Part shown: one piece after another, positions 8,199 through 30,318 of the stretch
Numbering within the stretch: position 1 is the first letter of the stretch
Layout of the letters: every line of letters begins with the position of its first letter
Origin: Chitinivibrionales bacterium
GTDB lineage: Bacteria; Fibrobacterota; Chitinivibrionia; Chitinivibrionales; WJKA01
Assembly (NCBI GenBank): GCA_014728215.1
Contig: WJLZ01000187.1
Coordinates: 1 to 51,496 of the forward strand
Length of the DNA stretch: 51,496 nt
Reading direction: 5' to 3'
The notes under the pieces: generated by a model
The model's database searches: none
The model's input: the letters and a program-made list of their open reading frames with translations, nothing else
Told to the model about the DNA's origin: nothing
Position numbers and translations under genes: made by a program

Positions 8199-8390
8199 AA
8201 TAATAATTCTTACCCATAAAGACTTAATAATAAAAAATACCCATTCAAGCAATATATAAAGTGCATACCCGGCATATAAACCTTTTTCTCAATATTATTA
8301 TCTTAATTAAGATATTTTTCAGATCCCTATAAATTATTCGTCGTTGGATATTTGGGTATATAGAATAACATATATAACAACATATAGAGT

Positions 8391-8563
8391 ATTTGAAAAG
8401 GGGAGGGATGCATGATTTGGAAAGGGGAGGGATGCATTTGCAAAGGGAATTCCATTCCCTTTAAAACCCACTTGGAAAATGCTTATTATATTCATGCCGG
8501 TAATGCCGGCATGCGTGGGTTGAGTTGTAAGCATTGAGCGTTTTTTAATTGGCAGTTGAAATG
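8391..8563 (+). repeat. Structured dispersed repeat, copy 1
   Basis: This roughly 170-bp stretch recurs with high identity at 11889-12048. It begins with a tandem 22-23-bp unit (ggaaaggggagggatgcat), followed by a perfect hairpin AAAGGGAAT/ATTCCCTTT (8441-8461). A hairpin TGCCGG/CCGGCA (8494-8510) follows. Two longer helices cross each other: AACCCAC/GTGGGTT (8464-8470 with 8514-8520) and AATGCTTA/TAAGCATT (8477-8484 with 8527-8534). A T-rich tail follows (gagcgttttttaa). It lies in the 583-bp gap 8253-8835, in which no other feature was recognised except a short GTGGTC/GACCAC palindrome near 8694. Confidence 0.7.
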
Positions 8564-8990
8564 ATGGTTACAGTTTTAAAAACTATTATTTGCAAACAAG
8601 GGTGTTTTGCCGGTGTTTACAGGCTTGTAGAGCCGGTATGGTTGTGAACTAAATCTAAGATCAGCTTACCTACAGCAATTGTTTCTTATACCGTGGTCCG
8701 ACCACCGTAATTCCGTCTTTTGGGGAGCGCTGTCTTTATGATTTTTTGCTATTGAATGCTTTACGAATTTCTTCGACTGCTGAAAGCCTGCCCCGACACG
8801 GTCCGGGACTTGCTCGTTCCTGCAATGACAGGTCGTTAGTGTTCTATTCCAAACGCAATTGATAATATTTGATTAGTAAACGGAAAAGAATTAAATTTGT
8901 TGTATCCGCAAAGTGCCGTATATATATTACGATAAATAAAGGGCCGTGCACTGGTTGCCGGAAAGGTTTCGGCCACGGCGGAAAAAGTCA

Positions 8991-10944
8991 ACAGCGCCTG
9001 GCGGGCGTTTATCATCACATTGTTGAATACCTGGCAGAGCTGGTTTTCGTCCGCTTCGATTGTAGATGTCTCGGGAGCAATGTTGATCGAGCAATCGATA
9101 CTTGAACCGCTCAGGGAGAGGTGTTGTGACTGCTCCAGTACTCGGGAGATATCTACCGGTTTTTTGCGGGGTGCCCCTCCCTTTGAGAAGGTAAGCAACT
9201 GCTGCGTAAGGTCTTTTGCTCTTTCCAGAGCCCCGATGCCTCTGCCCAGATATCGCCGGACATGTTCTCCATCACCGATTCCCTCAAGAGCGAGGTCGAT
9301 ATTGCCGAATATGCCCCCGAGGAGGTTATTGAAATCATGGGCAATGCCGCCGGCAAGGGCGCCAAGAGATTCTAATCTTTGCGCCCGTTGCATTGATTCG
9401 TCGAGTTTCTGTTTATCAGTTATGTCCCGGAATACAAGTATAACGCCAATGATGTTGCTCTCTCTGTCGAGAATCGGGGCGCCACTGTCGCCTATGACAA
9501 CCTCGCGGCCGTTTTTGCCAATAAGGCATGTATGGTTAGCCAAATCAACTGTTTGCCCTGTTCTAAGAACTTTCTCAACCGGGTTTTCTCGCTTTTGCCG
9601 TGTGTCTTCATCGACAATATTGAAAACATCCATCAATGGTCGTCCGGTAGCAGCCTCCGAATTCCACCCCGTCATTTGCTCTGCCGCCTTGTTGAGCATA
9701 GTAACGTTGCCCTCTACATCGGTCGTTATGACTCCATCACCGATGCTGCGAAGGGTGACAGCCAAGCGTTCTTTTTCTTCAGCAAGAGTCTGTTCCGCTT
9801 CTTTGCGTTCGGTTATGTCCTGAAACGAACCCTGTAGTCTGACAACCTCATTGTTCTCCAAAATGGGTTTGCCGATTGTTCGGGCAACGAGATGACGTCC
9901 TTTCGCCGTAATGAACCTTAGCTCGAGGTCATAGGGTTTTCCTTCGGCAAGGGCCTTTTTAATAGCATTCGCCAGAATCGGCCTGTCATCGGGATGCCAG
10001 AATTCAAGAGCGTTTTCCAGTGGCGGTTTGTCATCAAAAGGGACTTCGTGTATACGGTACGTTTCTTTGGTCCACGTGACTTCGTTTGTGGCGGGATCGA
10101 GCTCCCAGCCACCAACTCGAGCCATTTGTCCGGTTCTATCCAGCAGGGCTTCACTCTCTAGGAGGGCATCCTGCAGCTTTCTGCGCTCTGTTATGTCCTG
10201 GGCAGCTCCCCAAAGACCGATTATTTTCTTCTCGCTATCAAGAACTGCTTCTCCACGCACCCACATCCAACCATTGCTGCCGTCTTTCCTTACCATTTCC
10301 AGTTCAAGTTCGTAGGGTACTCCCGTTTCTCTGGTGTTTGCCAGTGAAGATGATAGAATGTCCCAACTTTCAGCAGTGAACAGCTTCATGTGTTCGGTGT
10401 AAGGCGGCACAGGAAGTGAGGGATCAAATCCGTACATCCGGTAGAGTTCTTCACTCCAAACGACCTGATTGGTTGCGGTATCCAGATACCAACTACCTAC
10501 ATGAGTTATCTCTTGTGTCCTCTTGAGTTCTTTTTCATTTCTTTCCGCTTTTTCTTTTGCGGCAACCAGTTCTTCATTCCGGATTCTCAGTTGATTTTCA
10601 TTTTCCCGCAGCTCGACTTCCGCCTGTTTACGCTCGGTGATGTCGGTGGCGTATATGTTGACATAGCCGCGATCGGGGATGGGCATAGCGACAAAGGAAT
10701 AGACCCTTTCACCAAGCGTCACATCAACGCTGTTCTGTTTCTCTTCAGTCGACAAAGATTCTACCAGAGAATGCCATTGGGCCGGTATCTTGTCGCCGAT
10801 TCTATTGCCGGCCTCCACCACGAGTTTCAGCGCCGCTGGATTTGCATAGAGCAGGCGCATTTCACGGTCTATCCTGAGCTCGGGGTTGTCGTTTTCCTCA
10901 GGAAATAAAGCGGTATCTCTGAGCCTTTGCGCTCTTTTGCTGCA
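8991..10944 (-). pseudogene. PAS histidine kinase truncated within the HATPase domain
   Basis: The frame encodes an N-terminally incomplete PAS (open upstream of the ATG at 10860 as FPEENDNPELRIDRE, with a stop at 10945-10947), then a short coiled coil. Two PAS/PAC modules with TERR and TERK ends follow, then a fourth PAS. The kinase region has AHDFNNLLGG (phosphoacceptor His508 counting from the ATG). The N box NNVMINARQAL is present. Immediately after it, at about 8991, the sequence switches to an unrelated tail that ends at 8836, so the D/F/G boxes and ATP lid are missing. The protein could not phosphorylate its histidine. The closest relative in the window is the kinase at 5310-8198. The gene lies between the two copies of the structured repeat, and recombination there may have trimmed it. 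Confidence 0.8.
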
Positions 10945-15539: not shown

Positions 15540-18500
15540 TTGAAAACTATTGCATCCGCAATAAAAATTTATCGAGTTATCGTTCTGGTTTTACTGGTTG
15601 TGGGAATTCAAACCTCGTATGCATTTATGACTGTTGATGCAACCAGTAATGCAGGGGTACTCTACGAAGATGTAAAATTCGGATGGAACCATACTATTGG
15701 GAATGGAGTCAATCGGCTGCTTGTTTTCAGCATATCGGGCGCACAGTGGGATAACAATAACACAAATGCCGCTCGAATTGACAGTATCAAATTTAACAAC
15801 AAAAAGGCAATCTATGCGGCATCATCCTATTATGGGACAAATTCTTTATGTTCACAGATATGGTATATGCTCGAGGATTCTCTTCCTGCCGCCGGAACCT
15901 ATCGATGTTCGGTGTTTTTTAAGGGAGAATTTGATCCCGGTTCCGCGGGGGCAATTTCCTTTTTTGGCGCCGCCCAGCAAGCCCCTGAAGCGGAAGATTC
16001 AACAACACTGACATCCGGGACAAACATTTTAACTGATGTTACGACGATAACCGACGGGGCATGGCTGGTTGATGCCCTCTTTGTCAACGGAGGGGATGAT
16101 CCCGCTCCAACTGAATCGGGACAACAGGAAATGTGGGATATTACTAATTGGGGAATATATCACAGTGCGGCAAGTAGACGGCAAATCGGTACCGCGGGAA
16201 ACGCGGGCATGGGATGGACTTCAGCCCCCGCTTCTCAGAACGGATGGGCGCATGTCGTCTGTGCATTCGCTCCCGATAATTCTCCGGGCGGCACAATCAC
16301 TATCCAGGACAACAACGGGTATACAAACGACAATACCCCCCTTATTACCGTAGTTCATGCTAACGCAAACCAGATGGCCATAACACTCGACACCAATTCA
16401 TACTCCTTCATACCTGTGGCATCGACTTATAACGGCATTACCTTTACTTCCGAAGGTAAAAACATTGTCTGGACGAAATTTACCGATGGTTCCAATCCAT
16501 CGGCATGGGTCAAAGACTCCACAATCTACGATATCACCCCACCGACATCAGCGATAATAACAAGCGGTTCATTTATCCCCGACACATGGCATCCTCATGA
16601 TTCTGTTAAAGGAACAATGTCCGACGGTTCGGGGGAAGTAGCCGGGGGGGACTCGGTAAAAATCACCATCAAGGCACCGGGGACAGGGAATCGTTACTGG
16701 GACGGCTCAGCCTGGTTGTCAACCGAAACATGGTTGAAAGCGACCCTCGCAAGCGGGGTCTGGTCCTATGAAATCGATACAGCGTCACTCAATGAGGGAG
16801 GCTCGGGAACATATACCATATCCTCCCTGGCCTATGATAAAGCGGGAAATGTGCAATCATCTTCCGGAACCGGTTCCTTTTCCTACGACGCCCCCGGACC
16901 GGAAAATCCTTCCATTAGTGTCGAGGATGGAAACGGGTATTCGAATACAACTACGATTAGCTGCCATCTTTCGGCAGACCAGGCTACCGGGGTGAAGGTC
17001 CTTGAAGGCTCCAACAGTCAAAATCCTCCTGCCGGCGGGTCGTATGTCGCTTTTTCCGATCCTCAACTCCAGAACGTGACTGTCGGCTCGACCGGTGGAT
17101 GGAAATATCTCTGGTCACGATTCAGGGATTCTCAGGGATATGAATCCTACTGGGTTGTGGACAGTACATTCTATGACGGTACCCCGCCCAATTCCGATAT
17201 CTCAACCACCGGCGGTTTCAATGCTTCATCCTGGGGTGATTCGATTAAGGGAAGTGCCACCGACGCCGCTCCGCAATCCGGGATAGCTTCGGTCAAAATC
17301 AGTATTTTCAACCAGTCCACCAGTCAGAACTGGAACGGCAGTGGATGGCAATTTGCAGAAGGGGATACGATCTGGCTGTCTGTCACAGGCACAACTTCGT
17401 GGGAATACGAACTCCTCGACGCCGGTCTTGTCGACGGTACCTGTCTTATTCAGTCCCGGGCCGAAGATAATGCGGGGAATCTGCAGATCGTGCTCGATAC
17501 CACCTATATCACCTATGACAACACGCCGCCCTCGGGATCAGTAACAATTTCCGACAACAACGGCTATACCAACGACGCCGACCCGCCCCTGACTATTACG
17601 TCATCGAATGCAGACAACATGCGGCTTGCTTTCGGCGCCGATACCACTACGTGGAAAGTGTATGCCACCCCCGACAGTATCCCTGTTGCGGCCGGGGGAG
17701 ACGGTCCGGTGAGTGTGTATGCGCAGTTCAAGGATGCCGTAGGAAATGTTTCCGGATGGGTGAGTGATAATACAATCTACGACGGCGCCGATCCGCAATC
17801 GGCTATTACCACGACGAGTACCTACAACAGCGGCGCCTGGCCCGGAGCGGTATCGGGCACTGCAGCCGATTCGACCTCGGGTGTGGAACAGGTGCTGGTC
17901 CAGGTCGAGCGGGTTTCACCGCCTGGGTACTGGACCGGTTCGGGGTGGGGGAGCGCCGGTTTTCTCTCGGCAACACTTACTTTCGGAGCCGCAAATTCAT
18001 GGAACTGGTCGCTGAATATTCCTGTGGGCAGTTTGAGTAACGGTCAGTACAATATCACGTGTAAAGCAGTCGACTCATCGGGCAACGAGCAGGCCACAGC
18101 CACCGCGGCATCCTTTGCCTATGACAGCAGTGGTCCGGCGGGCGCTCAGATTGCGATTATCGACAGCAGCGGCTTCACCGCCGATCCAACGCCGCCCCTG
18201 TCGCTCTATGCTACCGATGTTGTCGAAATGAGAATCGGCCTGGCGGCAAGCGATACTATCTCCTGGAAAAACTACAGCACCACCGACAGTATCGATATCT
18301 CGGGCGTGGGATCGGGCAATGGTGCGCGAATCTATGTGCAGTACCGCGATGCCAACGATAACCGCTCAATATGGATCAGTGATTCCACCACCTATGATAT
18401 CACTCCGCCTTCAGCAATAATAACCACGGCCGGAACATTCAACAGCACGAGCTGGAGCGGACGAATCCAGGGGTCTTCCTCGGATAATGCAGCGGGTGTT

Positions 18501-21500
18501 TCGCTCATTGAAGTAAGCATTCAGAGCCAGCTGAATTCCACCTGGTGGGACGGTTCCGCCTGGACCGCATCCGCCACTCCCATATGGCTTCCTGCAACCG
18601 GCGCCGGTTCCTGGTATTACCCCCTTGCCGCATCTAATCTCACCGACGGTGTTTTTTCGGTCTGGGCCCGGGGGATCGACCGGGTCGGTAACCTGCAGAG
18701 TTCTCTTGCCGCGGGAGACATTACCTATGACAATACCCCTCCCCTTAATCCGGAAATTCTGATTACCGATCAGAACGGCTATACCCGCGATACAGACCCT
18801 TATCTGCGGCTGACTGCAAGCGGCGCCGACAGCATGCGGATCGCTCTGTCACAGAATCCTCTTGCAGTGTGGAAACCCTGGAATTCGGCAGACAGCATTA
18901 CCATTTCTTCGGGCGGTGACGGGGCAAAAATTATCTACGCCCAGTTCAAGGACAGCGTGGGGAATGTGGGGGCCTGGGCGAGCGACACGACAACATTTGA
19001 TATTACCCCGCCTACAAGTCTGGTGATCACTCCTGCTCCCGCTTCAGTGATGAACCCTTCGGCATGGATCGATACGGTAAAAGGAACAGCTTCCGATCCG
19101 ACTGCAGGAATACAATCGGTGCGTATCAGCATACAAAGCAGGGTGAGTGGACGATTCTGGAATGGTAATGCGTGGGTTGACGGCGATTCGTTATGGCTTT
19201 CTGCAACCGGTACGGTGTCATGGCACTATCCAATAAATGATAATCAGTTCACCGATACCGCCTATACTGTGGCTTCACGGGCGGTCGACAGCGCAGGTAA
19301 TGTCCAGCAGATCCCTGCGAAAAATCATTTCCTCTTCTATCAGCCGCCGGTTGCAGGGTTCGATGCTCGGGGGAGCGCACTGAGGGCAACGGCGGTTCAA
19401 TTTACCGATACTTCAAAGGGCGCCATTACCGGATATCTGTGGGATTTCGGTGATGGTAATACGTCAACAGAGCAGAATCCGACTCATGTTTATCAGACGG
19501 CCGGGTCCTATCTTGTCGGGCTTATCGTTGATGGCCCCGGGGGAAAGGATACCGCTTTTCTGACCGATTCACTTCTTGTGTATGAAGAAGACCAGAATCC
19601 GATCAGGCTTGATGGACAGTATATCAATGATACGACCGTAGCATTATCATTTGAAGGCCATTCGGATATAAGTACATCTCTCTTCGAACCCCCCTCTGCC
19701 GATTCGATCCAGTTGTGGATCCGGCCAAATGCTCTTCCCACCGATCAGAATTTGGGAACTCAACTTACGAAATACAGTGTATCTAACCTGCAAAACAGGG
19801 GAGATCCTGCTTTCGATACGGTTACTGTCCCGCAACTCGCGTCCGGCGATACGGCATACGGATTTATGACATCAGTGGAATGGATACACGGTCATCCCTC
19901 AGGGTTCAGATCGATCAACGGTGATCTTGTTGTAATGGAAGACACAACCCGGCCGGTTAATGATCTGATTATGACCGGCACCTATCTGGGAGGGGACTCG
20001 ATCCGGCTGACTCTCGACAGCATATCGAGCATCGACACACAGTATGTTGCTCGAATCGGCATATGGTATGGTCTTTCCCAGACCGGAGATTTTTCAGATA
20101 CTTCATCCACCCGGTGGTATGATGTTTCGACCATTATAGCCGGAACCGTTGCCGATACCTGGTCGGTTACTCTTTCCGACCCGCTTTTTGCCGGTGAATC
20201 CAGAACCCTTTATGTACGGGCTGTTCTGGAAGGAAAGAATCTTCTGTACAGCGAGGATAGTGCAAAGGCCGACTTTACGGTTGGCAATCCCCGGCCCGAC
20301 AATCCGGTCGTGCTGCGGGCCACGGCGCTCAATTCGGAAACAATCCGGCTTTCGTGGAGTGAAATCTCCGGTGTCGACAGTATTAAAATATGGTACGGCA
20401 CGCAGGAGATCCCCGAAGACCCGCCCGGAGCCCTCACGCTGATGACTCTGGTTCCCGGTGCTACCGATACCGTTGATACCGCCGAAGGGCTCAATGCCAA
20501 TACCCGCTACCGGTTCGGCCTCCAGATACGTAAAAACGGCCTCTGGTCTCTTGTCACGCAGAATTCATCGGCAACCGATTCGACTCCTGCCGCTGATACG
20601 GGAAGTATTGTCAATTCCATCGATATCGTCGATGCCCGGTTCGATACTTCGGTCAACCAGATCATTATCACCTGGCGAGTCGATCATTACGACAATATCG
20701 ACCGGCGTTATGGGATACATCTGGATACCAGCTTCTGCAGCCTCGATACCCCGGCGGTCTGGCTCCCGGTCACTGATACATTCAATGTCGATTCGATTGA
20801 ATTTAACCATGATGAGCTTGTGTTCGATGCTCTTTACTGTATCTCGATGTGGCTCAAGCGGAGTGGCGGGGCGCCCTCCCTTCCCACCGATTCATCCAGA
20901 AAAACCCTGGAGACGCCGTCATATACATGGCAAAGCGTGACCTATTTCACCCGGGACACGGTCAAACTGTTCAACCGGAATGTCCGCCTGTGGAAAGACA
21001 GTACCTATACGATTCCGCCCACGACTGATATTATTTATAATTATTCACCCGACACTGCGCTTCTGAAGGGTCTCGATCCGGTGGGAGTGGGGATGTATTT
21101 CAAAAACCCGCAGCCGTCCCAGCCTTTCTATCTGGGATTTGCCTATGATTCGATACCATCGGGGTATACAGCCGGCGATATCCGCTTATACCGCTTTATC
21201 GGTACAGAATATGTGGTGGAACGGAATACGGTACTGGATACATCCCTCGATCTGATTTACATAAAAACCAACGCACTCTATTCCAACGACCTGAAAATCC
21301 CCCTTATTCCCATGATCGATACGGCCTCGCCCGAGATTACTTTTGAGAGTGAAACCACAACGGTTGTCGATATGGCGGTACAGAGCACGATATCGGATAC
21401 TTTTATTCTCGGCGACAACGTGGGGAATGCCCGGTGGCGGCTCTACTATGCAAAGGGCGGGGAATCGATCGACAAACCCGCTCCGGATAGTTCGGGAATC

Positions 21501-23069
21501 CTGAGTTCGACTTCCGATACGATCGTGAGTTTCATTGACAGCCGGGGGACCGAAGACAACGGCATGCGGATTCTGCTTGTTGTCGATGACGGTGTTCATG
21601 TGGATACGGTTAATCTTTCGCGGCAGACAGTCCGTCCCCTGTCCGATCCGCTCGCCACCGAGGCCATGGAATGGTATCCCGTGCATACCACCGCCACGCC
21701 GGAAAGTGCATCGGTAGCTTTCATGATGAGAAACACCGTGCAATCGGGAGCATCATGGTCCTACAACAGGAAGCGGGCCCGGATATTCAGGTGGTTCCCC
21801 TGCGAGGATAATCGATACGATAACGAGAAATGGATTGAATATTCGGATAAATACGATTCACTGGGTTATTTTGACTGCCTTCCGGGACGTCTGATCTGGA
21901 TAAAAACAAAGGAAAATGAATCGGTAGATTTCGGAAAAGCCGTAACGCTTTCGCTCAAAGACACCTTCAACCTCGAGCTTCCTCCCAACGAATGGACCGA
22001 TTGTGCGATACCATTCAAGTTTGACATGCGGATCAGTGATATCCTTGCGGCCACCGGTTCCCGGGCCGACAGCTGTGAATTCTACCGTTGGGAACAAGGC
22101 GGCGGCCCCGAGGGGGATATTTTCCTTTCCGAAGCTCTCTATGTTCCCGGGTTGATCGGATCGGATACCATGACCATTGTATCCGGTGATGCCGCGGGGC
22201 ATACGGTGTACAACCGTGCCGATACCATGGTAACCCTGAAATTCCCACCGGTTCCTCTGAGCATGTCGACCGTTCCGCAGAGCGAAACGACCTTCCTTGC
22301 CCGCCGAAAGAAGACCAGTGAATGGCGCATACGGCTTGTGCCTCGGGTGAAAGGAATGGGGAAAATTACCTCGGTGTATTGCGGTTATTCGCCGGGGGAG
22401 GGAATGGTCACCTATTACCGGAAACCGCCGTCACACGGCAACATATCGGTGAGTATCTATGATAAAGCCGGCGGTCGGCAATACGGACACAGTCTGGTCC
22501 ACCGACTGGAAGGGAACGGCGCTGTTTTCCCGCTCCTTTTCTCCAACGACTCCGAACACAAAAAGCAGATAACCGCTCACTACGAGATCCTGTCATCGAC
22601 GCCGGAGAATTATCGCATTAAACTATTCGATCCTGCAACAAAAACCTGGGTAGACGACAGTGCCGACTGCAAAACCATCGTTTCGGGCGGGGCGAAGGAG
22701 TACCGCTATCTGGTTGTTGGTGACAACACGTTTCTGCAGCAGTTCAAAACCGGTTTCAAAACATGGAACCTTGCCCTGGTCAATACCTTTCCCAATCCTT
22801 TCAGAAATACCATTACGATCCTCTATTCCTTGCCCTATTCGGGCATCCGGGAACTTCATTTCAGCATATTCGATATGCTCGGACGGACTGTCTGGGACCT
22901 GAAAATCCCCTCCCGGAGCATGCGCCCCGGTCTCAACCGTATCACCTGGAACGGCCTCAACCGCACCGGCGACAAAATCGCCTCAGGCACATACATGCTC
23001 CGCATGACCGCTGTCGACAACAAACAGGAAACGCGGTTGTTCAAGCGAAGGTTGACCTATGTGAAATAG
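15540..23069 (+). CDS. Giant modular surface/secreted protein with Ig-like repeats, PKD and sorting domain
   Basis: This is a 2509-aa protein starting at TTG (15540) with a nearby gaaagtggggg site and a signal peptide cut after SYA (about residue 28). Residues 30-245 form a beta-rich, lectin-like N-terminal module. Residues about 250-1268 are five tandem units of roughly 200 aa. Each unit opens with an I-x-D-x-N/S-G-Y/F-T-x-D motif; its second half begins TPPxSAI and contains WDGSAW-like strands, as in bacterial Ig-like adhesin repeats. A PKD domain follows (about 1270-1350; YLWDFGDGNTSTEQNPTHVY), then fibronectin-III-like modules (about 1350-1800) and further beta domains. The last 100 residues (NPFRNTITILYSL, SGTYMLRM) are a FlgD/T9SS-type C-terminal domain. 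No catalytic domain was recognised. It is probably an outer-surface or exported adhesin. Confidence 0.85.
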   Translation: MKTIASAIKIYRVIVLVLLVVGIQTSYAFMTVDATSNAGVLYEDVKFGWNHTIGNGVNRLLVFSISGAQWDNNNTNAARIDSIKFNNKKAIYAASSYYGTNSLCSQIWYMLEDSLPAAGTYRCSVFFKGEFDPGSAGAISFFGAAQQAPEAEDSTTLTSGTNILTDVTTITDGAWLVDALFVNGGDDPAPTESGQQEMWDITNWGIYHSAASRRQIGTAGNAGMGWTSAPASQNGWAHVVCAFAPDNSPGGTITIQDNNGYTNDNTPLITVVHANANQMAITLDTNSYSFIPVASTYNGITFTSEGKNIVWTKFTDGSNPSAWVKDSTIYDITPPTSAIITSGSFIPDTWHPHDSVKGTMSDGSGEVAGGDSVKITIKAPGTGNRYWDGSAWLSTETWLKATLASGVWSYEIDTASLNEGGSGTYTISSLAYDKAGNVQSSSGTGSFSYDAPGPENPSISVEDGNGYSNTTTISCHLSADQATGVKVLEGSNSQNPPAGGSYVAFSDPQLQNVTVGSTGGWKYLWSRFRDSQGYESYWVVDSTFYDGTPPNSDISTTGGFNASSWGDSIKGSATDAAPQSGIASVKISIFNQSTSQNWNGSGWQFAEGDTIWLSVTGTTSWEYELLDAGLVDGTCLIQSRAEDNAGNLQIVLDTTYITYDNTPPSGSVTISDNNGYTNDADPPLTITSSNADNMRLAFGADTTTWKVYATPDSIPVAAGGDGPVSVYAQFKDAVGNVSGWVSDNTIYDGADPQSAITTTSTYNSGAWPGAVSGTAADSTSGVEQVLVQVERVSPPGYWTGSGWGSAGFLSATLTFGAANSWNWSLNIPVGSLSNGQYNITCKAVDSSGNEQATATAASFAYDSSGPAGAQIAIIDSSGFTADPTPPLSLYATDVVEMRIGLAASDTISWKNYSTTDSIDISGVGSGNGARIYVQYRDANDNRSIWISDSTTYDITPPSAIITTAGTFNSTSWSGRIQGSSSDNAAGVSLIEVSIQSQLNSTWWDGSAWTASATPIWLPATGAGSWYYPLAASNLTDGVFSVWARGIDRVGNLQSSLAAGDITYDNTPPLNPEILITDQNGYTRDTDPYLRLTASGADSMRIALSQNPLAVWKPWNSADSITISSGGDGAKIIYAQFKDSVGNVGAWASDTTTFDITPPTSLVITPAPASVMNPSAWIDTVKGTASDPTAGIQSVRISIQSRVSGRFWNGNAWVDGDSLWLSATGTVSWHYPINDNQFTDTAYTVASRAVDSAGNVQQIPAKNHFLFYQPPVAGFDARGSALRATAVQFTDTSKGAITGYLWDFGDGNTSTEQNPTHVYQTAGSYLVGLIVDGPGGKDTAFLTDSLLVYEEDQNPIRLDGQYINDTTVALSFEGHSDISTSLFEPPSADSIQLWIRPNALPTDQNLGTQLTKYSVSNLQNRGDPAFDTVTVPQLASGDTAYGFMTSVEWIHGHPSGFRSINGDLVVMEDTTRPVNDLIMTGTYLGGDSIRLTLDSISSIDTQYVARIGIWYGLSQTGDFSDTSSTRWYDVSTIIAGTVADTWSVTLSDPLFAGESRTLYVRAVLEGKNLLYSEDSAKADFTVGNPRPDNPVVLRATALNSETIRLSWSEISGVDSIKIWYGTQEIPEDPPGALTLMTLVPGATDTVDTAEGLNANTRYRFGLQIRKNGLWSLVTQNSSATDSTPAADTGSIVNSIDIVDARFDTSVNQIIITWRVDHYDNIDRRYGIHLDTSFCSLDTPAVWLPVTDTFNVDSIEFNHDELVFDALYCISMWLKRSGGAPSLPTDSSRKTLETPSYTWQSVTYFTRDTVKLFNRNVRLWKDSTYTIPPTTDIIYNYSPDTALLKGLDPVGVGMYFKNPQPSQPFYLGFAYDSIPSGYTAGDIRLYRFIGTEYVVERNTVLDTSLDLIYIKTNALYSNDLKIPLIPMIDTASPEITFESETTTVVDMAVQSTISDTFILGDNVGNARWRLYYAKGGESIDKPAPDSSGILSSTSDTIVSFIDSRGTEDNGMRILLVVDDGVHVDTVNLSRQTVRPLSDPLATEAMEWYPVHTTATPESASVAFMMRNTVQSGASWSYNRKRARIFRWFPCEDNRYDNEKWIEYSDKYDSLGYFDCLPGRLIWIKTKENESVDFGKAVTLSLKDTFNLELPPNEWTDCAIPFKFDMRISDILAATGSRADSCEFYRWEQGGGPEGDIFLSEALYVPGLIGSDTMTIVSGDAAGHTVYNRADTMVTLKFPPVPLSMSTVPQSETTFLARRKKTSEWRIRLVPRVKGMGKITSVYCGYSPGEGMVTYYRKPPSHGNISVSIYDKAGGRQYGHSLVHRLEGNGAVFPLLFSNDSEHKKQITAHYEILSSTPENYRIKLFDPATKTWVDDSADCKTIVSGGAKEYRYLVVGDNTFLQQFKTGFKTWNLALVNTFPNPFRNTITILYSLPYSGIRELHFSIFDMLGRTVWDLKIPSRSMRPGLNRITWNGLNRTGDKIASGTYMLRMTAVDNKQETRLFKRRLTYVK

Positions 23070-23085
23070 GGCGAGGGGCAGGGAC

Positions 23086-23172
23086 GAGGTCACGAGCGCA
23101 CGAGTGGAGTAAAAAACCGTCCTCTTACGCTCGTGACTTCTTACGCTCGTGACTTCGTGCGCTCGTGACCTC
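23086..23172 (+). repeat. Intergenic 16-bp repeat array with 17-bp inverted arms
   Basis: TTACGCTCGTGACTTC occurs perfectly twice in tandem (23125-23140, 23141-23156), followed by a variant GTGCGCTCGTGACCTC (23157-23172). The left side (23086-23102) is a perfect 17-bp reverse complement of 23156-23172. A similar array lies before the Y-polymerase gene (25945-26055), and a short piece lies before the radical SAM gene (23869-23880). These are family repeats of unknown function and could fold as long stem-loops in mRNA. Confidence 0.7.
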
Positions 23173-23181
23173 AAATTCCAC

Positions 23182-23210
23182 TTGCATACTGTTCAAATGT
23201 ACAGTATATT
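23182..23210 (+). promoter_or_regulatory. LexA (SOS) box overlapping the lexA promoter
   Basis: TACTGT at 23187-23192 and ACAGTA at 23201-23206 flank 8 bp, giving the palindrome CTGT-N8-ACAG used by gammaproteobacterial LexA. It overlaps a promoter TTGCAT (23182-23187) - 17 bp - TATATT (23205-23210) and lies 42 bp before the lexA ATG, so LexA would block its own transcription. No second copy was seen before the following four genes, implying one SOS transcript. Confidence 0.8.
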
Positions 23211-23248
23211 ATAGGAGTGAGCATTCTTTCATTTCACAAGGGAGTTTT

Positions 23249-23866
23249 ATGCGAGATCTTACCCCCGAACAGCATCGTGTTCTTTCGTTTGTGATCCACA
23301 GCCAGAAGAATCGTGGTGCGCCGCCCACCGTTCGTGAGATTGCCGAGAAACTTGGGTATAAGAGTATCAACAGTGCCCGCCAGCACCTTCGGTTGATCGA
23401 GAAAAAGGGGTATATCCGGAGCATTCCCGGCAAAGCCCGGGGGATCGAGATTGTGGTGGGATTCGAGATGGAGAAAGACGATTCCGGGCTCCGGGTACCC
23501 ATGGTCGGGCGGGTTGCGGCCGGCAAACCGATTACCGCGGTGGAGAATCTCGACGGTTATGTTACGCTCGACCGGACAATTTTCCGTGGTGAAGGGCTTT
23601 TTACCCTCCGTATCAGCGGGGACAGCATGAAAGATATCGGTATTATGGATGGTGATATCGTGATAGTCCGTCAGCAGTCTATGGTGGAAAACAACGAAGT
23701 CGCGGTGGTGATTATCGATGGCGATGCCACGCTCAAGCGCTTTATCCGCCACAACGACCACATAATTCTCCGCGCCGAAAACCCGGCCTATGGGGATATG
23801 ATCGTTTTTGATGATAAGGATGTGTGGGTCGTGGGGAAATTGGTGGGGGTTATGAGGAGATGTTGA
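23249..23866 (+). CDS. lexA: LexA repressor
   Basis: This 205-aa SOS repressor starts at the ATG preceded by aagggag; an upstream in-frame start would lie within the operator. The N-terminal winged HTH is at 1-70, with recognition helix SINSARQHLRLIEKKG. The C-terminal S24 autoprotease has the cleavage site Ala91-Gly92 (RVAAGKP), nucleophile Ser126 (SGDSM) and general base Lys163 (TLKRF). All residues needed for RecA-stimulated self-cleavage are present. It heads a putative five-gene cassette (lexA, radical SAM, DUF72, Y-polymerase-like, DnaE2-like) on the same strand. A CTGT-N8-ACAG operator upstream indicates autoregulation. Confidence 0.95.
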   Translation: MRDLTPEQHRVLSFVIHSQKNRGAPPTVREIAEKLGYKSINSARQHLRLIEKKGYIRSIPGKARGIEIVVGFEMEKDDSGLRVPMVGRVAAGKPITAVENLDGYVTLDRTIFRGEGLFTLRISGDSMKDIGIMDGDIVIVRQQSMVENNEVAVVIIDGDATLKRFIRHNDHIILRAENPAYGDMIVFDDKDVWVVGKLVGVMRRC

Positions 23867-23881
23867 GCGTACGCTCGTAAA

Positions 23882-25021
23882 ATGAACATACACAAACAAC
23901 CAACCACTCTCCAAAAACTCCACCTCCTCTCGCAGGATTCTCAATATGATTTATCCTGTGCTTGTGGAAGCAACGACAAGGAGCGCCGTCACCGGTCGGG
24001 GGATGATCGGTGGGTGTATCCGGCGGCATTGCCGGGGAGCGGGGAGAAGCGATTTCTTTTCAAGACCCTGATCTCCAATGTGTGCAGTAACGACTGCAAG
24101 TACTGCCCGATCAGGAGTGAGCGTGATGTTCCCCGGTGCAGTTTACGTCCCGAGGAGGTGGCGTCAGTGTTTATGGACTACTATACCCGGAAAAAAGTGA
24201 TGGGTATTTTTCTCAGCAGCGGCGTGATCGGCACGCCGGACAGCACCATGGACCGGATCACGGCGATAGCGAGGATTTTACGGAAAAAGCACAAATTCAA
24301 AGGGTATATGCACCTGAAAATCATTCCCGGCGCATCGGATGGCGCCATCGAAGAGGCGGTTTCGCTGGCCGGTATGGTTTCGATCAATATCGAAACGCCC
24401 GGTGAAAATCATTTCAGGCTTTTGAGCGGCCGAAAAGACTATTTCAATGATGTAATTCGCCCGTTGAAATATATCAGTAAACTAACGGGTAAAGGAATGA
24501 AATACAGCCGGGTGAAACAGACTACCCAGTTTGTTGTGGGTGCGGCCGATGAAACCGACAGGGATATTGTCCGGTATGCTGGCGGGTTGTACAACAAACT
24601 GAAACTCAACCGTATCTACTTCAGCGCCTATCAGCGGGGTGCCGGCACCGCCGACCTTCCGGGAGAGCATTCACTGCAGAGCAATGCAGACCTCCTGACC
24701 CGGGAGCACCGCCTGTACCAGACCGATTTCCTCATGCGGAAATACCGTTTTGCTCCCGAGGATATCCCGCTGGACAGACAAGGGTATCTGGCCCTCGACA
24801 TAGATCCCAAAGAACATTGGGCCCGGTGCCATCCGGAATTTTTCCCGATCAATCTCAACCGGGCAAACAAGTACGATCTGCTCCGGGTACCGGGGATAGG
24901 CCATATAACAGTAAACACCATTCTTTCTATGAGAAAGGAGGGGAGAAGAATCAGGAGATTGGAAGATATCGGAAGAGTCGGAAAACGGCTTGAAAAAGCG
25001 AGAGGGTATCTGTGTGTGTGA
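23882..25021 (+). CDS. Radical SAM protein of the DNA modification/repair type
   Basis: This is a 379-aa protein. The radical SAM cluster motif is CSNDCKYC (Cys-x3-Cys-x2-Cys, near residues 68-75). A TIM-barrel-like middle follows (FLSSGVIG, MHLKIIPGASD, VSINIETPGENHF). At the C-terminus there is a helix-hairpin-helix (INLNRANKYDLLRVPGIGHITVNTIL), the usual non-specific DNA-binding element. This architecture matches the family annotated as putative DNA modification/repair radical SAM protein (TIGR03916), normally linked to a uracil-DNA-glycosylase-like partner that is not seen here. It starts 15 bp after lexA, so it is SOS co-regulated. The reaction is unknown. Confidence 0.85.
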   Translation: MNIHKQPTTLQKLHLLSQDSQYDLSCACGSNDKERRHRSGDDRWVYPAALPGSGEKRFLFKTLISNVCSNDCKYCPIRSERDVPRCSLRPEEVASVFMDYYTRKKVMGIFLSSGVIGTPDSTMDRITAIARILRKKHKFKGYMHLKIIPGASDGAIEEAVSLAGMVSINIETPGENHFRLLSGRKDYFNDVIRPLKYISKLTGKGMKYSRVKQTTQFVVGAADETDRDIVRYAGGLYNKLKLNRIYFSAYQRGAGTADLPGEHSLQSNADLLTREHRLYQTDFLMRKYRFAPEDIPLDRQGYLALDIDPKEHWARCHPEFFPINLNRANKYDLLRVPGIGHITVNTILSMRKEGRRIRRLEDIGRVGKRLEKARGYLCV

Positions 25022-25124
25022 AGGGCGGAGCCCGGGGGGCTGGGCTATCAGGAAAAGCATTTTCCAAGCTGGGTTTTAGCATGGTCCCGACCGGGGGAGG
25101 GAATAGACCCCCAGGCCCTAAGCA

Positions 25125-25146
25125 TCACAAATAATTCGATTTGTGA
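25125..25146 (+). promoter_or_regulatory. 8-bp inverted repeat between radical SAM and DUF72 genes
   Basis: TCACAAAT (25125-25132) and ATTTGTGA (25139-25146) are perfect arms around AATTCG, 24 bp upstream of the DUF72 start. It may be an operator or an mRNA hairpin. It does not match the LexA box of this locus. A C/G-rich inverted pair (CCGGGGG / CCCCC) lies just upstream. Confidence 0.35.
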
Positions 25147-25170
25147 CAACGATACTCATTCTTACTAAGC

Positions 25171-25947
25171 ATGAAACAACAAATACTCATAGGAACAAGC
25201 GGTTACTCCTACAAGGAGTGGGTTGGCCCGGTGTATCCGCCGGGGACCGCGCCGAAGGATTTTCTGGAGCTGTACAGCGGAATGTTTCCGCTGGCCGAGC
25301 TCAATTTTTCCTATTACCGTCAACCGGACCAGCGGACCATGGGGCGAATGGCCCATATGACGGGTGATGATTTCACTTTTGTGGTGAAAGGGCATAAGAG
25401 TCTGACCCATGAGATCAAGAATTTCAGGGAAGACGCCGCCGTGTTCAAGCATGGGATTGGGCCCCTGACCGAAGCGGGGAAACTTGGTGCGGTATTACTT
25501 CAGTTCCCCTACAGTTTCCATTATGTTCCCCGGTCGCGGAAATATCTCGATGCACTCTGTGCCGAATTCGAGCATATTCCCCTTGCCGTGGAGTTTCGCA
25601 ACAGTGAATGGCAGAACGATTCGGTCTATAACGGGCTCAAAAAACGGAATGTCGCGCTGGTGAGTGTTGATGAACCCGATTTACCCAAACTGCTCAAGCC
25701 GACCGAGATCACCACCGCAGATTTTGCCTATGTCCGTTTTCATGGAAGAAACCAACAGAACTGGTGGACCGGCGACAATGTCTCCCGGTACGACTACCTG
25801 TACAGCGATGATGAACTCATGGAGTGGGTCCCCAGGATCCAGACCATGGCTGCAACGGCCCACAGGGTAATGGTGGCATTTAACAACCACTCCAAAGGCC
25901 AGGCAGCTCAGAACGCGAAGCGGTTGAAGGAGATGCTTGAGGGGTGA
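25171..25947 (+). CDS. DUF72 (YecE-like) TIM-barrel protein
   Basis: This 258-aa protein shows the DUF72 hallmarks: IGTSGYSYKEWVG near the N-terminus, ELNFSYYR, FVVKGHKSLTH, LGAVLLQFPYSF, VEFRNSEW, YVRFHGRN and a C-terminal FNNHSKGQAAQNAKRL. The family folds as a TIM barrel with conserved acidic/His residues suggestive of an enzyme, but its reaction is not established. It sits inside the SOS cassette, 149 bp after the radical SAM gene and about 100 bp before the Y-polymerase gene. The position suggests a DNA-damage role (inference). No clear ribosome site was found. Confidence 0.9.
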   Translation: MKQQILIGTSGYSYKEWVGPVYPPGTAPKDFLELYSGMFPLAELNFSYYRQPDQRTMGRMAHMTGDDFTFVVKGHKSLTHEIKNFREDAAVFKHGIGPLTEAGKLGAVLLQFPYSFHYVPRSRKYLDALCAEFEHIPLAVEFRNSEWQNDSVYNGLKKRNVALVSVDEPDLPKLLKPTEITTADFAYVRFHGRNQQNWWTGDNVSRYDYLYSDDELMEWVPRIQTMAATAHRVMVAFNNHSKGQAAQNAKRLKEMLEG

Positions 25948-26055
25948 GTGTACGAGCGTACGGGTTCACGAGCGCACGAACGCACGTGGGAAGCAAAAAT
26001 CGTCCTCTTACGCTCGTCACTTCGTGAACTCGTAACTTCGTATACTCATGCGCAA
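25945..26055 (+). repeat. Second intercistronic 16-bp repeat array
   Basis: Direct units TTACGCTCGTCACTTC (26008-26023) and GTGAACTCGTAACTTC (26024-26039) are followed by a degenerate unit reaching the start codon of the polymerase gene. Inverted-orientation units (ACGAGCGTACGGGTTC, ACGAGCGCACGAACGC) lie at 25954-25985. The core between the arms, with cgtcctc, is the same as in the array at 23086-23172. The array leaves no room for a normal ribosome site before 26048. Confidence 0.65.
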
Positions 26056-27211
26056 CATTCTGCACATCAACATAGTGAATTTCTACACCGCGGTAGCCCG
26101 GGCGCTTAATCCGCGGCTGGAATCCTGGCCGGTGGCGGTGGTCTCGGCGGGGGCAACCCGGCGGGTGGTGCTGGATTTTTCCTCGGAGGCCCGGGAGGCG
26201 GGGCTCTATCGGGGGATGCTTCTGGATGAAGCCCGGCGCCGGTGCCCGGACCTTCGCATACTCAACCCCACGCCGTCGATATACGACCGGGCCTATGCCG
26301 CCCTGACCGGCGAGGCTTCCCGTCTTTCACCCCAGGTGGAAACCGCCGGGCCGGGACATCTCTTTGTGGATCTCACCGGAACCCGGCGGCTCTTTGGCGG
26401 AGCGGTCGATGTCGGCTATCGGCTGAAACAGACGATCGAAAACAAATACCGCCTTCCATGCACAGCCGGCCTGGCAGGGAGCAAACTGGTCAGCAAGGTC
26501 GCCACCCGGGTGATCAAACCGGTCGGGCTCTGCTCGGTTGTTCATGGGTGTGAAGATGAATTTATGGCCCCCCTGCCTATTACCTTTCTGCCGGGAATCG
26601 ATCATAAGGTAATCCGGCAACTTATTCAGTTTAATTTAAACATAATCAGCGACTTGCATGTGTTGCAGCCCCGGGAACTGTCAAAGGCCCTGGGTGATAT
26701 CGCCTCCACGGTCCAGCGCCTTTCCCACGGGATCGATTCCACCCCGGTCCGGAAACTGAAAGACCCGGCACCATCACTACAAGAACAGGCAAGCCTGAAA
26801 CAACAGTCCAACGATCTGGAGTATATCAAATCCGAGCTTTTCAATCTCGTTGTACGGGCCGGAGTCAGACTTCGACAGCAGGGGATAGCTACCCGGAAAA
26901 TTGTGCTTGTAATCACCTACAAAGACAACTCCCGGAGCCGGCGCACAACATCCCTTCACACCCCGATCAACGGTGATTTGAGCATTTTCGACTGCTGTCG
27001 CACCATGCTGAATTTGTCGTACAAGCGGCGGATATGTCTCACCGAGATGAGTATCCAACTGCAACAGCTCTCTTCTCCCTATGGCCAGCTCGACCTCTTT
27101 GTCGACAACGAACAGGAAAATCAACTCATGAACGCCCTCGATAAAATCAGGGGTAAATTCGGCATCAATTCGGTGAAGTTTTATGGGAAACAGATTGGAA
27201 TGATGGAATGA
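26048..27211 (+). CDS. imuB: Catalytically dead Y-family DNA polymerase, ImuB-like
   Basis: This 387-aa protein aligns without gaps to the E. coli Pol IV N-terminus (MRNILHIN vs MRKIIHVD), with palm, fingers, thumb and little-finger regions recognisable. The metal-binding acids are replaced: Asp8 is Asn8, and Asp103-Glu104 are Gly103-His104 (GPGHLFVDLT). It should therefore not polymerise. Loss of these residues is the hallmark of ImuB, the clamp-binding hub of the ImuA-ImuB-DnaE2 mutasome. A textbook beta-clamp motif QLDLF lies about 40 residues from the C-terminus. It is shorter than typical ImuB (about 500 aa). A DnaE2-like polymerase gene follows 138 bp downstream. The symbol is by analogy, not by tested orthology. 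Confidence 0.75.
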   Translation: MRNILHINIVNFYTAVARALNPRLESWPVAVVSAGATRRVVLDFSSEAREAGLYRGMLLDEARRRCPDLRILNPTPSIYDRAYAALTGEASRLSPQVETAGPGHLFVDLTGTRRLFGGAVDVGYRLKQTIENKYRLPCTAGLAGSKLVSKVATRVIKPVGLCSVVHGCEDEFMAPLPITFLPGIDHKVIRQLIQFNLNIISDLHVLQPRELSKALGDIASTVQRLSHGIDSTPVRKLKDPAPSLQEQASLKQQSNDLEYIKSELFNLVVRAGVRLRQQGIATRKIVLVITYKDNSRSRRTTSLHTPINGDLSIFDCCRTMLNLSYKRRICLTEMSIQLQQLSSPYGQLDLFVDNEQENQLMNALDKIRGKFGINSVKFYGKQIGMME

Positions 27212-27349
27212 GGGGAGAAGATTTGAGAACAGGTCGAAACCAACGACCGCTGGTCGCTGACTGCTGAGAACAAGTCCGGAAATTAAAACTGAACCACTGC
27301 TGGAGCGTCGCGAAAGTCCCGCCCAGCGGGAAACCCTTGTATAACGATC

Positions 27350-30283
27350 ATGGCACCGCTCCTCGCAACAACCACTCACTACTCCATCCTCAGGGGGGTG
27401 CATACTCCCGAGGCGCTCTGCGTATATGCAAAAAAGAACGGTTACTCATCGATTGCCCTCACCGACCGGAACAATCTCTATGCGCTTCCATTGTTTCTGG
27501 ATCTCTGCGAAAAACATGGTCTTAAGCCGATTATCGGGGCCGAGCTTTATCACGATGGAGTAAGTGCTCTGGTGTATGCTCACGGTAACCGGGGGTATTC
27601 CAATCTCTGCAGGATAATAACACATAAGCATTGCAGTAAGTCGTTCGATCTTGCGGGAGAGCTTAAAGCTCATTTTTCAGGGCTCACTATGGCGACCCGG
27701 GATACCTCTCTGCTTATGGAGCTCCACCGGAAACTCCCGGTATATTACCGGATTACCTCGCTCAAGCGGCTTCCTGAAGCTGTTCGTGGGTGCGGCATTC
27801 CGGCGCTGATCGTTCCGTGGGCTGCATTTATTACCCCGGAAGATTATGCGCTCCACCGGCTTCTTCGTGCAATCGACAACAATACGTCCCTTTCCCGGCT
27901 TCCTGAAGAGGATTGTATTCCCGAAAATGCCGTGATTGTTCCCTGGGAAGAGCTGAGGGCCCGTTTTGCGGTTTTCGAAGACGCTGTTGCGGCTACAGAA
28001 CATTTTGCCGGGTCGCTGATTTCAAAGACCGATTTCGGCGCACCGATCATGCCGGAATTCAACAGCGATGAACCGCCGCCGGAGCTTCTTCGGAGAAAAG
28101 CCTATGAAGGAGCCCATTACCGATATCCCGAGCTGACCCGTAAAATTACCGACCGCCTCGAATACGAACTCGGTGTTATCGAAAAAAAGAGATATGTATC
28201 ATACTTTCTTGTGGTTGATGATATCGTTAAGCAGTCGCCCCGTACCTGCGGCAGGGGGTCGGGGGCAGCGAGCCTGGTCGCCTACTGTCTCGGCATAACT
28301 AATGTCGATCCAATACGTTACAATCTTATGTTCGAGCGGTTTATCAGCCCGGAGCGCAAAGATCCACCCGATATCGACGTCGATTTTGCATGGGATGAGC
28401 GGGATGATGTTTTAGATTATGTTTTTGAAAAATATACCGGCAAACACGCAGCCATGGTTGCGACCCATCAGACCTTCGGTCCCCGAATGGCACTCCGTGA
28501 GACTGCCCGGGTCTACGGCATGACCGAATCCGAGATCAGTACGGTTACCGGAAAAATTCCTTTCTTGGCAATGGCGGCGCCCATGGGGTATGAAATTGAA
28601 GAGGTTTTTCGGCTGCATCCGAAACTGAGAGACATTCCCCTCGACCCTCCCTGGCCGGAGATAATAAGGATTGCACAGCGGCTTTTGAAAATGCCCCGGG
28701 GGATCGGGACCCACTGCGGCGGGGTTATTATCACTCCCATGGAAATCGCCTCGGTAGCGCCGGTACAGATATCCGCCAAAGGATATCCGATTATTCAGTG
28801 GGAAAAGGACGGCGCCGAGCGCATGGGACTGGTTAAAATCGATCTTCTGGGCAACCGCTCTCTTGCGGTGATCAGGGATACCCTGGCCAACCTGAAACAG
28901 GAAAAAATTTCGATTAATGAACAGGCCTGGGAACCGGCCCATGATCCCTCAACACAACGCCTTCTGGCCCGGGGAAAATCGATCGGGGTCTTTTATGTGG
29001 AATCGCCCTCCATGCGCCTTCTCCAGGAGAAAACCGGGCGGGGTGATTTCGAACATCTGGTAATCCATTCATCGATAATACGCCCCGCGGCAAACAAGTG
29101 GATCAATGAGTATATCGACCGTCTGAAAGGCAAACCCTGGAAACAGATTATCCCTCCACTGAGCGAGCTTCTCAAAGATTCCTACGGCATACTCGTGTAT
29201 GAAGAGGACGTTACCCGGGTGGCGATGGCGGTAGCGGGGTTTTCCTATGAGCATGCCGATAAACTCAGGAAACTGGTGACCCGCCAGAAAAGTGAAGAGG
29301 CGGTTGCCCGGTATCAGCGGGCCTTTTTTGAAGGGGTAAAACAAAAAAGAATACTCCTGGACCATGGGAAACAGATCTGGGAGATGATCCTCCATTTCGG
29401 CGGGTATTCGTTCTGTAAGCCCCATTCGGCGAGCTATTGTCGGATATCGTACCAGTCTGCCTGGCTCAAAGCCCATTATCCTGCGCCGTTCATGGCTGCA
29501 GTGATGAGCAATTATGGAGGATTTTATACAACCCAGGCTTATATCAGCGAATCACAGCGGCTGGGGATACACGTGTATCCTCCGGATGTGAACGCCAGTG
29601 AAGACCGTTTTATTGCCCGGGGCAATTCGATCAGCGTAGGGCTCTGCCAGATCAAAGGACTGTCATCCACAGCAAAGGAACGTATTCTTAACCGGCGGCA
29701 CGAGGGCCGATTGTTTAGGAATGTTAATGATTTCCTTGAACGATGTTCCATTGATGAAAGCGATGCCGAGCACCTGGTTAAAGCCGGTGCTCTCGACAGT
29801 TTGTCACCAAAACACAACCGCCCGCAGATATTCTGGCAGATGCGCTGTTTTTATCGCAGTTTCAATGAAGAAAAGAGTGTGCCGCGGTTCAGATCATTTT
29901 CACGACTTCAACTTTTACGCTTTGAGTATGGCGCATCGGGCTTTCTCACCGCCTGTCATCCGATTCAACTGGTAAGTCACAGGAGAATTCCTAATACTAT
30001 TAAAATCAGTATGATAAATAAATCGAAGGTTAACCGATTCGTTGTTTTTTCCGGATGGTGCGTGACATCAAAGACTGTGGCCACGAAATCCGGTGAATCC
30101 ATGCAGTTTGTGACCTTTGAAGATGAGACCGGGATCTGTGAAACGGTGTTGTTTCCCGATGCCTACACTATTTTTGTGCGTTATCTTACGTGGCAGGAGG
30201 CGTTTTGGGTGAGGGGGAAAGTGGTTGATGACCATGGGGCGATAATCGTTGAGGTTCGTTCAATTGCACCGCTGAAGGAATAA
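27350..30283 (+). CDS. dnaE2: DnaE2-like error-prone DNA polymerase III alpha subunit
   Basis: This 977-aa C-family polymerase has an N-terminal PHP domain (about 1-200), degenerate in metal ligands (THYS instead of HxHxS, TDRNNL instead of TDHxN). The catalytic palm has PPDIDVDF (two Asp) and the third Asp in GLVKIDLLGN. The GRGSGAASLVAY and HQTFG segments are standard for the family. A helix-hairpin-helix is followed by AGALDSLSPKHNRPQIFWQM, resembling the DnaE2/ImuC signature. A final OB fold is present (FVTFEDETGICETVLFP). It is shorter than replicative DnaE (about 1160 aa) and lacks the tau-binding C-terminal domain. The terminator right after it ends the SOS cassette. Role: translesion synthesis with the inactive Y-polymerase. 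Confidence 0.85.
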   Translation: MAPLLATTTHYSILRGVHTPEALCVYAKKNGYSSIALTDRNNLYALPLFLDLCEKHGLKPIIGAELYHDGVSALVYAHGNRGYSNLCRIITHKHCSKSFDLAGELKAHFSGLTMATRDTSLLMELHRKLPVYYRITSLKRLPEAVRGCGIPALIVPWAAFITPEDYALHRLLRAIDNNTSLSRLPEEDCIPENAVIVPWEELRARFAVFEDAVAATEHFAGSLISKTDFGAPIMPEFNSDEPPPELLRRKAYEGAHYRYPELTRKITDRLEYELGVIEKKRYVSYFLVVDDIVKQSPRTCGRGSGAASLVAYCLGITNVDPIRYNLMFERFISPERKDPPDIDVDFAWDERDDVLDYVFEKYTGKHAAMVATHQTFGPRMALRETARVYGMTESEISTVTGKIPFLAMAAPMGYEIEEVFRLHPKLRDIPLDPPWPEIIRIAQRLLKMPRGIGTHCGGVIITPMEIASVAPVQISAKGYPIIQWEKDGAERMGLVKIDLLGNRSLAVIRDTLANLKQEKISINEQAWEPAHDPSTQRLLARGKSIGVFYVESPSMRLLQEKTGRGDFEHLVIHSSIIRPAANKWINEYIDRLKGKPWKQIIPPLSELLKDSYGILVYEEDVTRVAMAVAGFSYEHADKLRKLVTRQKSEEAVARYQRAFFEGVKQKRILLDHGKQIWEMILHFGGYSFCKPHSASYCRISYQSAWLKAHYPAPFMAAVMSNYGGFYTTQAYISESQRLGIHVYPPDVNASEDRFIARGNSISVGLCQIKGLSSTAKERILNRRHEGRLFRNVNDFLERCSIDESDAEHLVKAGALDSLSPKHNRPQIFWQMRCFYRSFNEEKSVPRFRSFSRLQLLRFEYGASGFLTACHPIQLVSHRRIPNTIKISMINKSKVNRFVVFSGWCVTSKTVATKSGESMQFVTFEDETGICETVLFPDAYTIFVRYLTWQEAFWVRGKVVDDHGAIIVEVRSIAPLKE

Positions 30284-30318
30284 AAAAAACGGATGCCATA
30301 AAAAGCATCCGTTTTTTC
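30284..30318 (+). terminator. Strong intrinsic terminator after dnaE2
   Basis: A 13-bp stem AAAAAACGGATGC (30284-30296) / GCATCCGTTTTTT (30305-30317) with an 8-nt loop ends in a T-run. It directly follows the stop codon. The remaining gap to 30586 contains no other recognised element. Confidence 0.9.

Follow-up and report, generated by a model that had tools for sequence, protein, structure and literature searches.

A probable LexA-controlled, ImuA-less translesion synthesis cassette with a DUF72 protein in a Chitinivibrionales genome

What does a DUF72 protein do among genes of the SOS response, and how many of its neighbors work with it? The question is raised by a five-gene locus on contig WJLZ01000187.1 of a Chitinivibrionales bacterium (Fibrobacterota; GCA_014728215.1), the 51,496 nucleotides (nt) of which are the window analyzed here. 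The locus comprises lexA, a gene for a radical S-adenosylmethionine protein with a helix-hairpin-helix (HhH) domain (rSAM), a DUF72 gene, a gene for a catalytically dead Y-family polymerase (polY; protein PolY) and a gene for a C-family DNA polymerase (dnaE). The DUF72 family is widespread and structures for it have been solved, yet to our knowledge it has no assigned function. A first-pass annotation of the window had proposed a damage-tolerance system in which rSAM and DUF72 take the place of imuA and the rSAM reaction is coupled to translesion synthesis. Our analysis, based on sequence comparison, suggests that the locus is probably a LexA-autoregulated, ImuA-less translesion synthesis cassette in which DUF72 is a true partner in the SOS response.

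Conservation of the cassette

Searching 84,980 species genomes with an alignment of PolY alone, a choice that does not select for DUF72, yielded 41 loci, and DUF72 lay upstream of polY in 30 of them. These DUF72-PolY loci span Fibrobacterota, Planctomycetota (L122), Desulfobacterales, Spirochaetota and one Myxococcota-labelled record, and dnaE follows in nearly all loci with enough contig, sometimes past an insert. DUF72 ends a median of 49 nt before PolY, and the genes overlap in several Treponema. An apparent DnaE2-PolY fusion in one locus (L102, open reading frame 6099-10349) was rejected as a frame artefact, the genes overlapping by 4 nt in different frames.

Within Fibrobacterota, DUF72 orthologues (50-66% identity) were found in 14 of 168 genomes, all 14 of which carry a dead PolY, and no genome has the orthologue without PolY. 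Dead PolY itself occurs in 15 genomes; in the fifteenth (G017), it is cut off at the contig start. The order lexA-rSAM-DUF72-PolY recurs in eight loci (L040, L041, L042, L043, L045, L046, L048 and L053), with dnaE following in L040, L043, L045 and L046, and the inserts found among these loci (an ABC transporter pair, an antiporter and a GIY-YIG gene) are unrelated. Gene order across genomes, which the first-pass annotation had named as a check, is kept across phyla for (lexA)-DUF72-PolY-dnaE; with rSAM included, it is kept in Fibrobacterota alone. The nearest genome, from the same genus (G036, 77% complete), has no match to the cassette-type PolY, DUF72 or rSAM, which may reflect incompleteness.

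LexA boxes and transcription

The lexA gene (23249-23866, + strand; TIGR00498, 204 bits; Peptidase_S24 and LexA_DNA_bind domains) is preceded at 45 bp by a LexA box, CTGTTCAAATGTACAG (23189-23204, + strand; extended form ATACTGTTCAAATGTACAGTAT), the sole CTGT-N8-ACAG match in the window, where 0.26 would be expected by chance. No other site in the 5.0-Mb genome comes within two mismatches of the extended motif; allowing three adds four other sites, against two matches with a reversed control. The extended motif is also found 5' of lexA in relatives, of DUF72 in L087 and L121, and of polY in L088 and L120. The cassette thus appears to be under LexA control, as the ImuA-ImuB-DnaE2 mutasome is, through a conserved upstream box.

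As first annotated (23182-30318), all five genes lie on the + strand between this box and an intrinsic terminator hairpin (30284-30317, + strand; -17.6 kcal/mol, z -6.4). The spacers between them are, in order, 15, 149, 100 and 138 nt. No internal LexA box was found within the cassette, and promoter-like sites on its + strand occur inside genes only, at chance frequency; a single transcript covering all five genes is plausible.

DUF72 also has SOS boxes of its own. Other families of Fibrobacterota carry a divergent second cassette, lexA-dnaE-PolY-DUF72 (L094, L095, L096 and L109; also L093 and L099, with no lexA in the DNA seen), the PolY of which likewise lacks the catalytic acids and the DUF72 of which is only 26-32% identical to that of the window. 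The genes are scattered in genus g37, yet boxes that are nearly identical (ACTGTACATTTGNGCAGT and its variants) lie near the starts of DUF72 and PolY genes in G155, G156 and G159 and of dnaE in G154, G156 and G157. Only 0.1% of shuffled windows reach two or fewer mismatches to this box, and none was found at six housekeeping DUF72 genes. Second-type DUF72 genes away from polymerase genes (L164, L097 and L108) keep the same SOS box. Among cassettes of the window type (type 1), one that starts with DUF72 as seen (G006) has a type-1 box 71 nt upstream of that gene, and a split cassette (G019) has one upstream of PolY. The SOS-box evidence for DUF72 is independent of adjacency.

Other observations weigh against DUF72 as a partner of the polymerases, or against a single unit. 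Seven Desulfobacterales cassettes keep lexA-PolY-dnaE without DUF72, with nothing closer than a DUF72 of 37-38% identity elsewhere in their genomes; DUF72 is therefore not universally required. In the PolY tree, these loci are scattered among relatives that carry DUF72, which points to repeated loss of the gene. A Nitrospinota locus lacks both DUF72 and dnaE. The correlation between DUF72, PolY and DnaE distances (Mantel r 0.88-0.98), which speaks for DUF72 as a partner, is in part a product of shared species history. In the window, spacers of 100-149 nt could accommodate additional promoters, and many of the relatives are metagenome bins.

The polymerases

PolY (26048-27211, + strand; IMS/IMS_C domains) has lost its catalytic acids, as the first-pass annotation had noted: HVDMD has become HINIV and SVDE has become GPGH, with the same change in all orthologues aligned. 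Near its end lie a putative beta-clamp-binding motif, QLDLF (27086-27100, + strand; context GQLDLF), with Q, L and F invariant among 20 aligned sequences, and a RecA-N-terminus-like motif, NQLMNALDKIRGKFGINSVKFYG (27119-27187, + strand), recognized by eye against the genome's own RecA (AAVEQAVSQIEKQHGKGAIMRLGE). The latter pattern is also present in type-1 PolYs of other phyla and is known from PolYs of other ImuA-less systems (Timinskas and Venclovas, PMC6511836). PolY stops after this motif and has no ImuB-C-like region; a standalone ImuB-C was not searched for by model. In our tree, cassette PolYs fall outside the clade of two ImuBs from plasmid cassettes, suggesting that PolY is an ImuB analogue from outside the ImuB clade. 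The same genome encodes a separate, apparently active DinB (L092).

The C-family polymerase (27350-30283, + strand; DNA_pol3_alpha, finger, HhH, PHP and OB domains) retains its catalytic aspartates (PDIDVDF and KIDLLG). Its earlier description as DnaE2-like was borne out by layout (a PHP remnant, the catalytic Asp triad, HhH, OB and no domain past the OB fold) and not by grouping: in a small tree, the cassette DnaE stands apart from two ImuA/ImuB-linked DnaE2s of plasmid cassettes.

Comparison with known mutasomes

The earlier claim that the cassette lacks imuA was upheld, as the ImuA model (NF033429) matches only RecA in the source genome and finds nothing above RecA background in 23 cassette genomes. 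On a Manganitrophus plasmid, the order is lexA-imuA-imuB-dnaE2 (imuA being assigned here from a RecA-family Pfam match and position), and on the mobilizable plasmid Do28_1 of Desulfosarcina ovata it is lexA-DUF72-PolY-dnaE. The two orders match, with DUF72 standing where imuA does, and we place DUF72 in the imuA slot. That rSAM and DUF72 jointly fill it, as proposed at first pass, is not supported as stated, rSAM being absent from every cassette found outside Fibrobacterota and from some within. An unrelated protein can thus occupy the position of imuA in a mutasome operon.

With the ImuA-ImuB-DnaE2 mutasome, the cassette shares the lexA-controlled arrangement, a dead PolY with a clamp motif and a C-family polymerase with an intact active site. 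It differs in having DUF72 and no ImuA, a PolY outside the two-ImuB clade without an ImuB-C-like tail and, in the small tree, a polymerase outside the ImuA-linked DnaE2 clade. Operons pairing PolY and DnaE2 without ImuA have been published (the Kyrpidia, Streptomyces DinB2 and Cellulophaga types; Timinskas and Venclovas 2019, PMC6511836); they combine a dead or active PolY bearing a RecA-N-terminus-like motif with DnaE2, often with lexA, and lack imuA. By its clamp and RecA-N-terminus-like motifs, its adjoining DnaE2-type polymerase and its lack of imuA, our cassette appears to belong with these, though DUF72 is not among the parts described for them and some have a standalone ImuB-C (PMC6511836).

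DUF72 has also been found enriched near polB2 operons of the PolB2-iRadA-PPB2 mutasome, with lexA nearby in bacteria (PMC11791011). That system differs in its B-family polymerase and its other partners, and the DUF72 link there is a neighborhood enrichment. Full-text literature searches tied DUF72 to no imuB-type cassette, which is weak evidence given thin coverage of subscription journals and preprints, and pairing DUF72 as a whole word with lexA or translesion retrieved the PolB2 paper only (PMC11791011). A lone match for DUF72 with imuB concerned Rv0004 and was set aside unconfirmed, as probably a word-start match to DUF721. Three elements already have precedents in the literature: operons of PolY and DnaE2 without ImuA, COG4277 enzymes with an SOS link, and the enrichment of DUF72 around polB2 operons.

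A possible role for DUF72

The window protein (25171-25947, + strand) belongs to DUF72 by both Pfam model (PF01904, 218 bits) and fold. It is a TIM barrel of the TM1631-like subfamily (E=6.5e-55 and about 40% identity to TM1631, PDB 1vpq), and its AlphaFold 2 model (pLDDT 96) superposes on 1vpq with a TM score of 0.92. An endonuclease IV-like role in DNA repair was predicted for TM1631, the structure of which contains no metal, and Konc et al. modelled DNA-phosphate contacts at N44, K72, Q114, R145 and R191 (PMC3828134). The equivalents in the window protein (N45, K73, Q111, R143 and R189) are all invariant in alignment A2. As these residues are conserved in housekeeping DUF72 paralogues too, they were rejected as a mark of the cassette type; they would fit DNA binding for the family, with nothing specific to the cassette. 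Foldseek did not specifically support a nuclease-type barrel, likeness to apurinic/apyrimidinic endonucleases being weak (4hno, rank 50, TM 0.51). What does set cassette proteins of both types apart is a signature (N194, W198, R206-Y207-Y209 and N239-H240; in short, N194/W198/RYDY/NNH) missing from six housekeeping paralogues. Phage records held distant DUF72s only.

Taken with the motifs and the ImuB paradigm, these features allow a mechanism to be sketched. DNA damage would lead to RecA-driven cleavage of LexA, freeing the upstream promoter. Dead PolY may then act as an adaptor, with QLDLF docking it on the sliding clamp and its RecA-N-terminus-like tail docking it on RecA, and may bring in the cassette's C-family polymerase, which would carry out synthesis. 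DUF72 would be a co-induced accessory of this polymerase module, encoded in the imuA slot. Its conserved context and the published prediction for TM1631 suggest that it could bind damaged or distorted DNA and act at the lesion before or during bypass; this role as a lesion-binding accessory is tentative and is the weakest step of the mechanism. A broader proposal, that the signature-bearing subfamily is a dedicated damage-recognition or lesion-processing part of ImuA-less mutasomes in several phyla and is needed for bypass, is more doubtful still. The functional context that the first-pass annotation offered for DUF72 has nonetheless held, with conservation in several phyla, the imuA slot and boxes of its own where genes are dispersed. 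Its conserved place in SOS cassettes and its LexA-type boxes make its role a direct genetic question, for which a cultured carrier exists in Desulfosarcina ovata, a named sulfate reducer with the cassette on a plasmid.

Among other explanations, DUF72 and rSAM might both be enzymes that repair lesions on their own, sharing nothing with the polymerases but SOS induction. The endonuclease IV-like prediction for TM1631 (PMC3828134), the SOS regulation elsewhere of COG4277 together with uracil-DNA glycosylase (PMC8565304), the separability of rSAM from polymerases (L039, L044 and L061) and the loss of DUF72 from some cassettes all agree with this, but DUF72 tracks PolY (at 30 of 41 PolY loci, in several phyla and two gene orders) rather than lexA or rSAM, and we consider the explanation somewhat unlikely. 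It is less likely again that DUF72 is a physical subunit replacing ImuA, the missing ImuB-C or both as a bridge between PolY, RecA and polymerase. Such a bridge would suit a protein in the imuA slot, the 23 genomes without imuA and a PolY ending after its RecA-like motif; however, DUF72 folds as a TIM barrel, has a conserved pocket and is not RecA-like, cassettes without it exist, and RecA itself could replace ImuA through the PolY motif, as proposed elsewhere by Timinskas and Venclovas (PMC6511836).

The radical SAM gene and the lexA-rSAM module

The rSAM gene (23882-25021, + strand; Radical_SAM and HHH_3; TIGR03916, E=1.7e-87) encodes a CX3CX2C motif (CSNDCKYC) and a C-terminal HhH. Its product is a short TIGR03916/COG4277-like form. 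As in COG4277/TIGR03916 systems (PMC8565304), an rSAM-HhH protein is linked to the SOS response; the window protein differs in scoring below the curated cut-off of TIGR03916 (rSAM_link_UDG; 294 vs 343.5 bits), in lacking the C-terminal extension of the canonical form and in having no uracil-DNA glycosylase or DUF4130 gene adjacent in the window. The genome's only linked-glycosylase-type candidate is a sub-threshold TIGR03914 match on another contig. An AlphaFold 2 model of rSAM from 7 sequences (pLDDT 67) was of insufficient quality to look for similar folds.

The rSAM gene is absent from every cassette found outside Fibrobacterota and, inside the phylum, from the DUF72-PolY loci of G037, G039 and G006 (with dnaE adjoining or not). 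Conversely, lexA-rSAM occurs without polymerase genes in L039, L044 and L061. The cassette thus consists of two separable modules, lexA-rSAM, confined to Fibrobacterota, and (lexA)-DUF72-dead PolY-dnaE. Because it is missing from some cassettes and paired with lexA without polymerases, we read rSAM as a separate SOS gene, most likely encoding a parallel SOS repair enzyme next to lexA and outside the polymerase core. It would then give Fibrobacterota a second SOS-induced enzyme, for repair or modification, and the lexA-rSAM pairing extends the published SOS link of COG4277-type enzymes.

The coupling of an rSAM reaction to translesion synthesis proposed at first pass is weakly supported, rSAM and the polymerase module being separable both ways. 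That all five genes form one machine would accord with the lexA-rSAM-DUF72-PolY order kept in several genera of the order and with a window rSAM lacking the DUF4130 neighbor of Fibrobacteraceae-type loci, but given these absences of rSAM and its occurrence with lexA alone, we regard it as quite improbable. Chance adjacency of unrelated genes near lexA, to which the 100-149 nt gaps and a small repeat between DUF72 and PolY might speak, is barely credible: conservation across phyla, overlapping genes in Treponema and conserved SOS boxes contradict it, and with it the random adjacency in relatives named at first pass as refuting.

Fibrobacteraceae-type loci carry a longer rSAM relative followed by a DUF4130 gene. 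Longer rSAMs beside DUF4130 in L067 and L070 end in clamp-motif-like sequences (QQLDLF and TQLSLF); the window-type rSAM has no such end.

Flanking features

The repeat between DUF72 and polY is palindromic and intergenic, with copies at 23084-23167 and 25945-26047 (CACGAGCGCACGA / TCTTACGCTCGTGACTTCGTG); genome-wide, these two are joined by one partial copy (C115). Directly upstream of the cassette, positions 15540-23069 encode a very large protein (2509 aa) in which Ig-like or PKD-like stretches recur and the C-terminus resembles a sorting segment.

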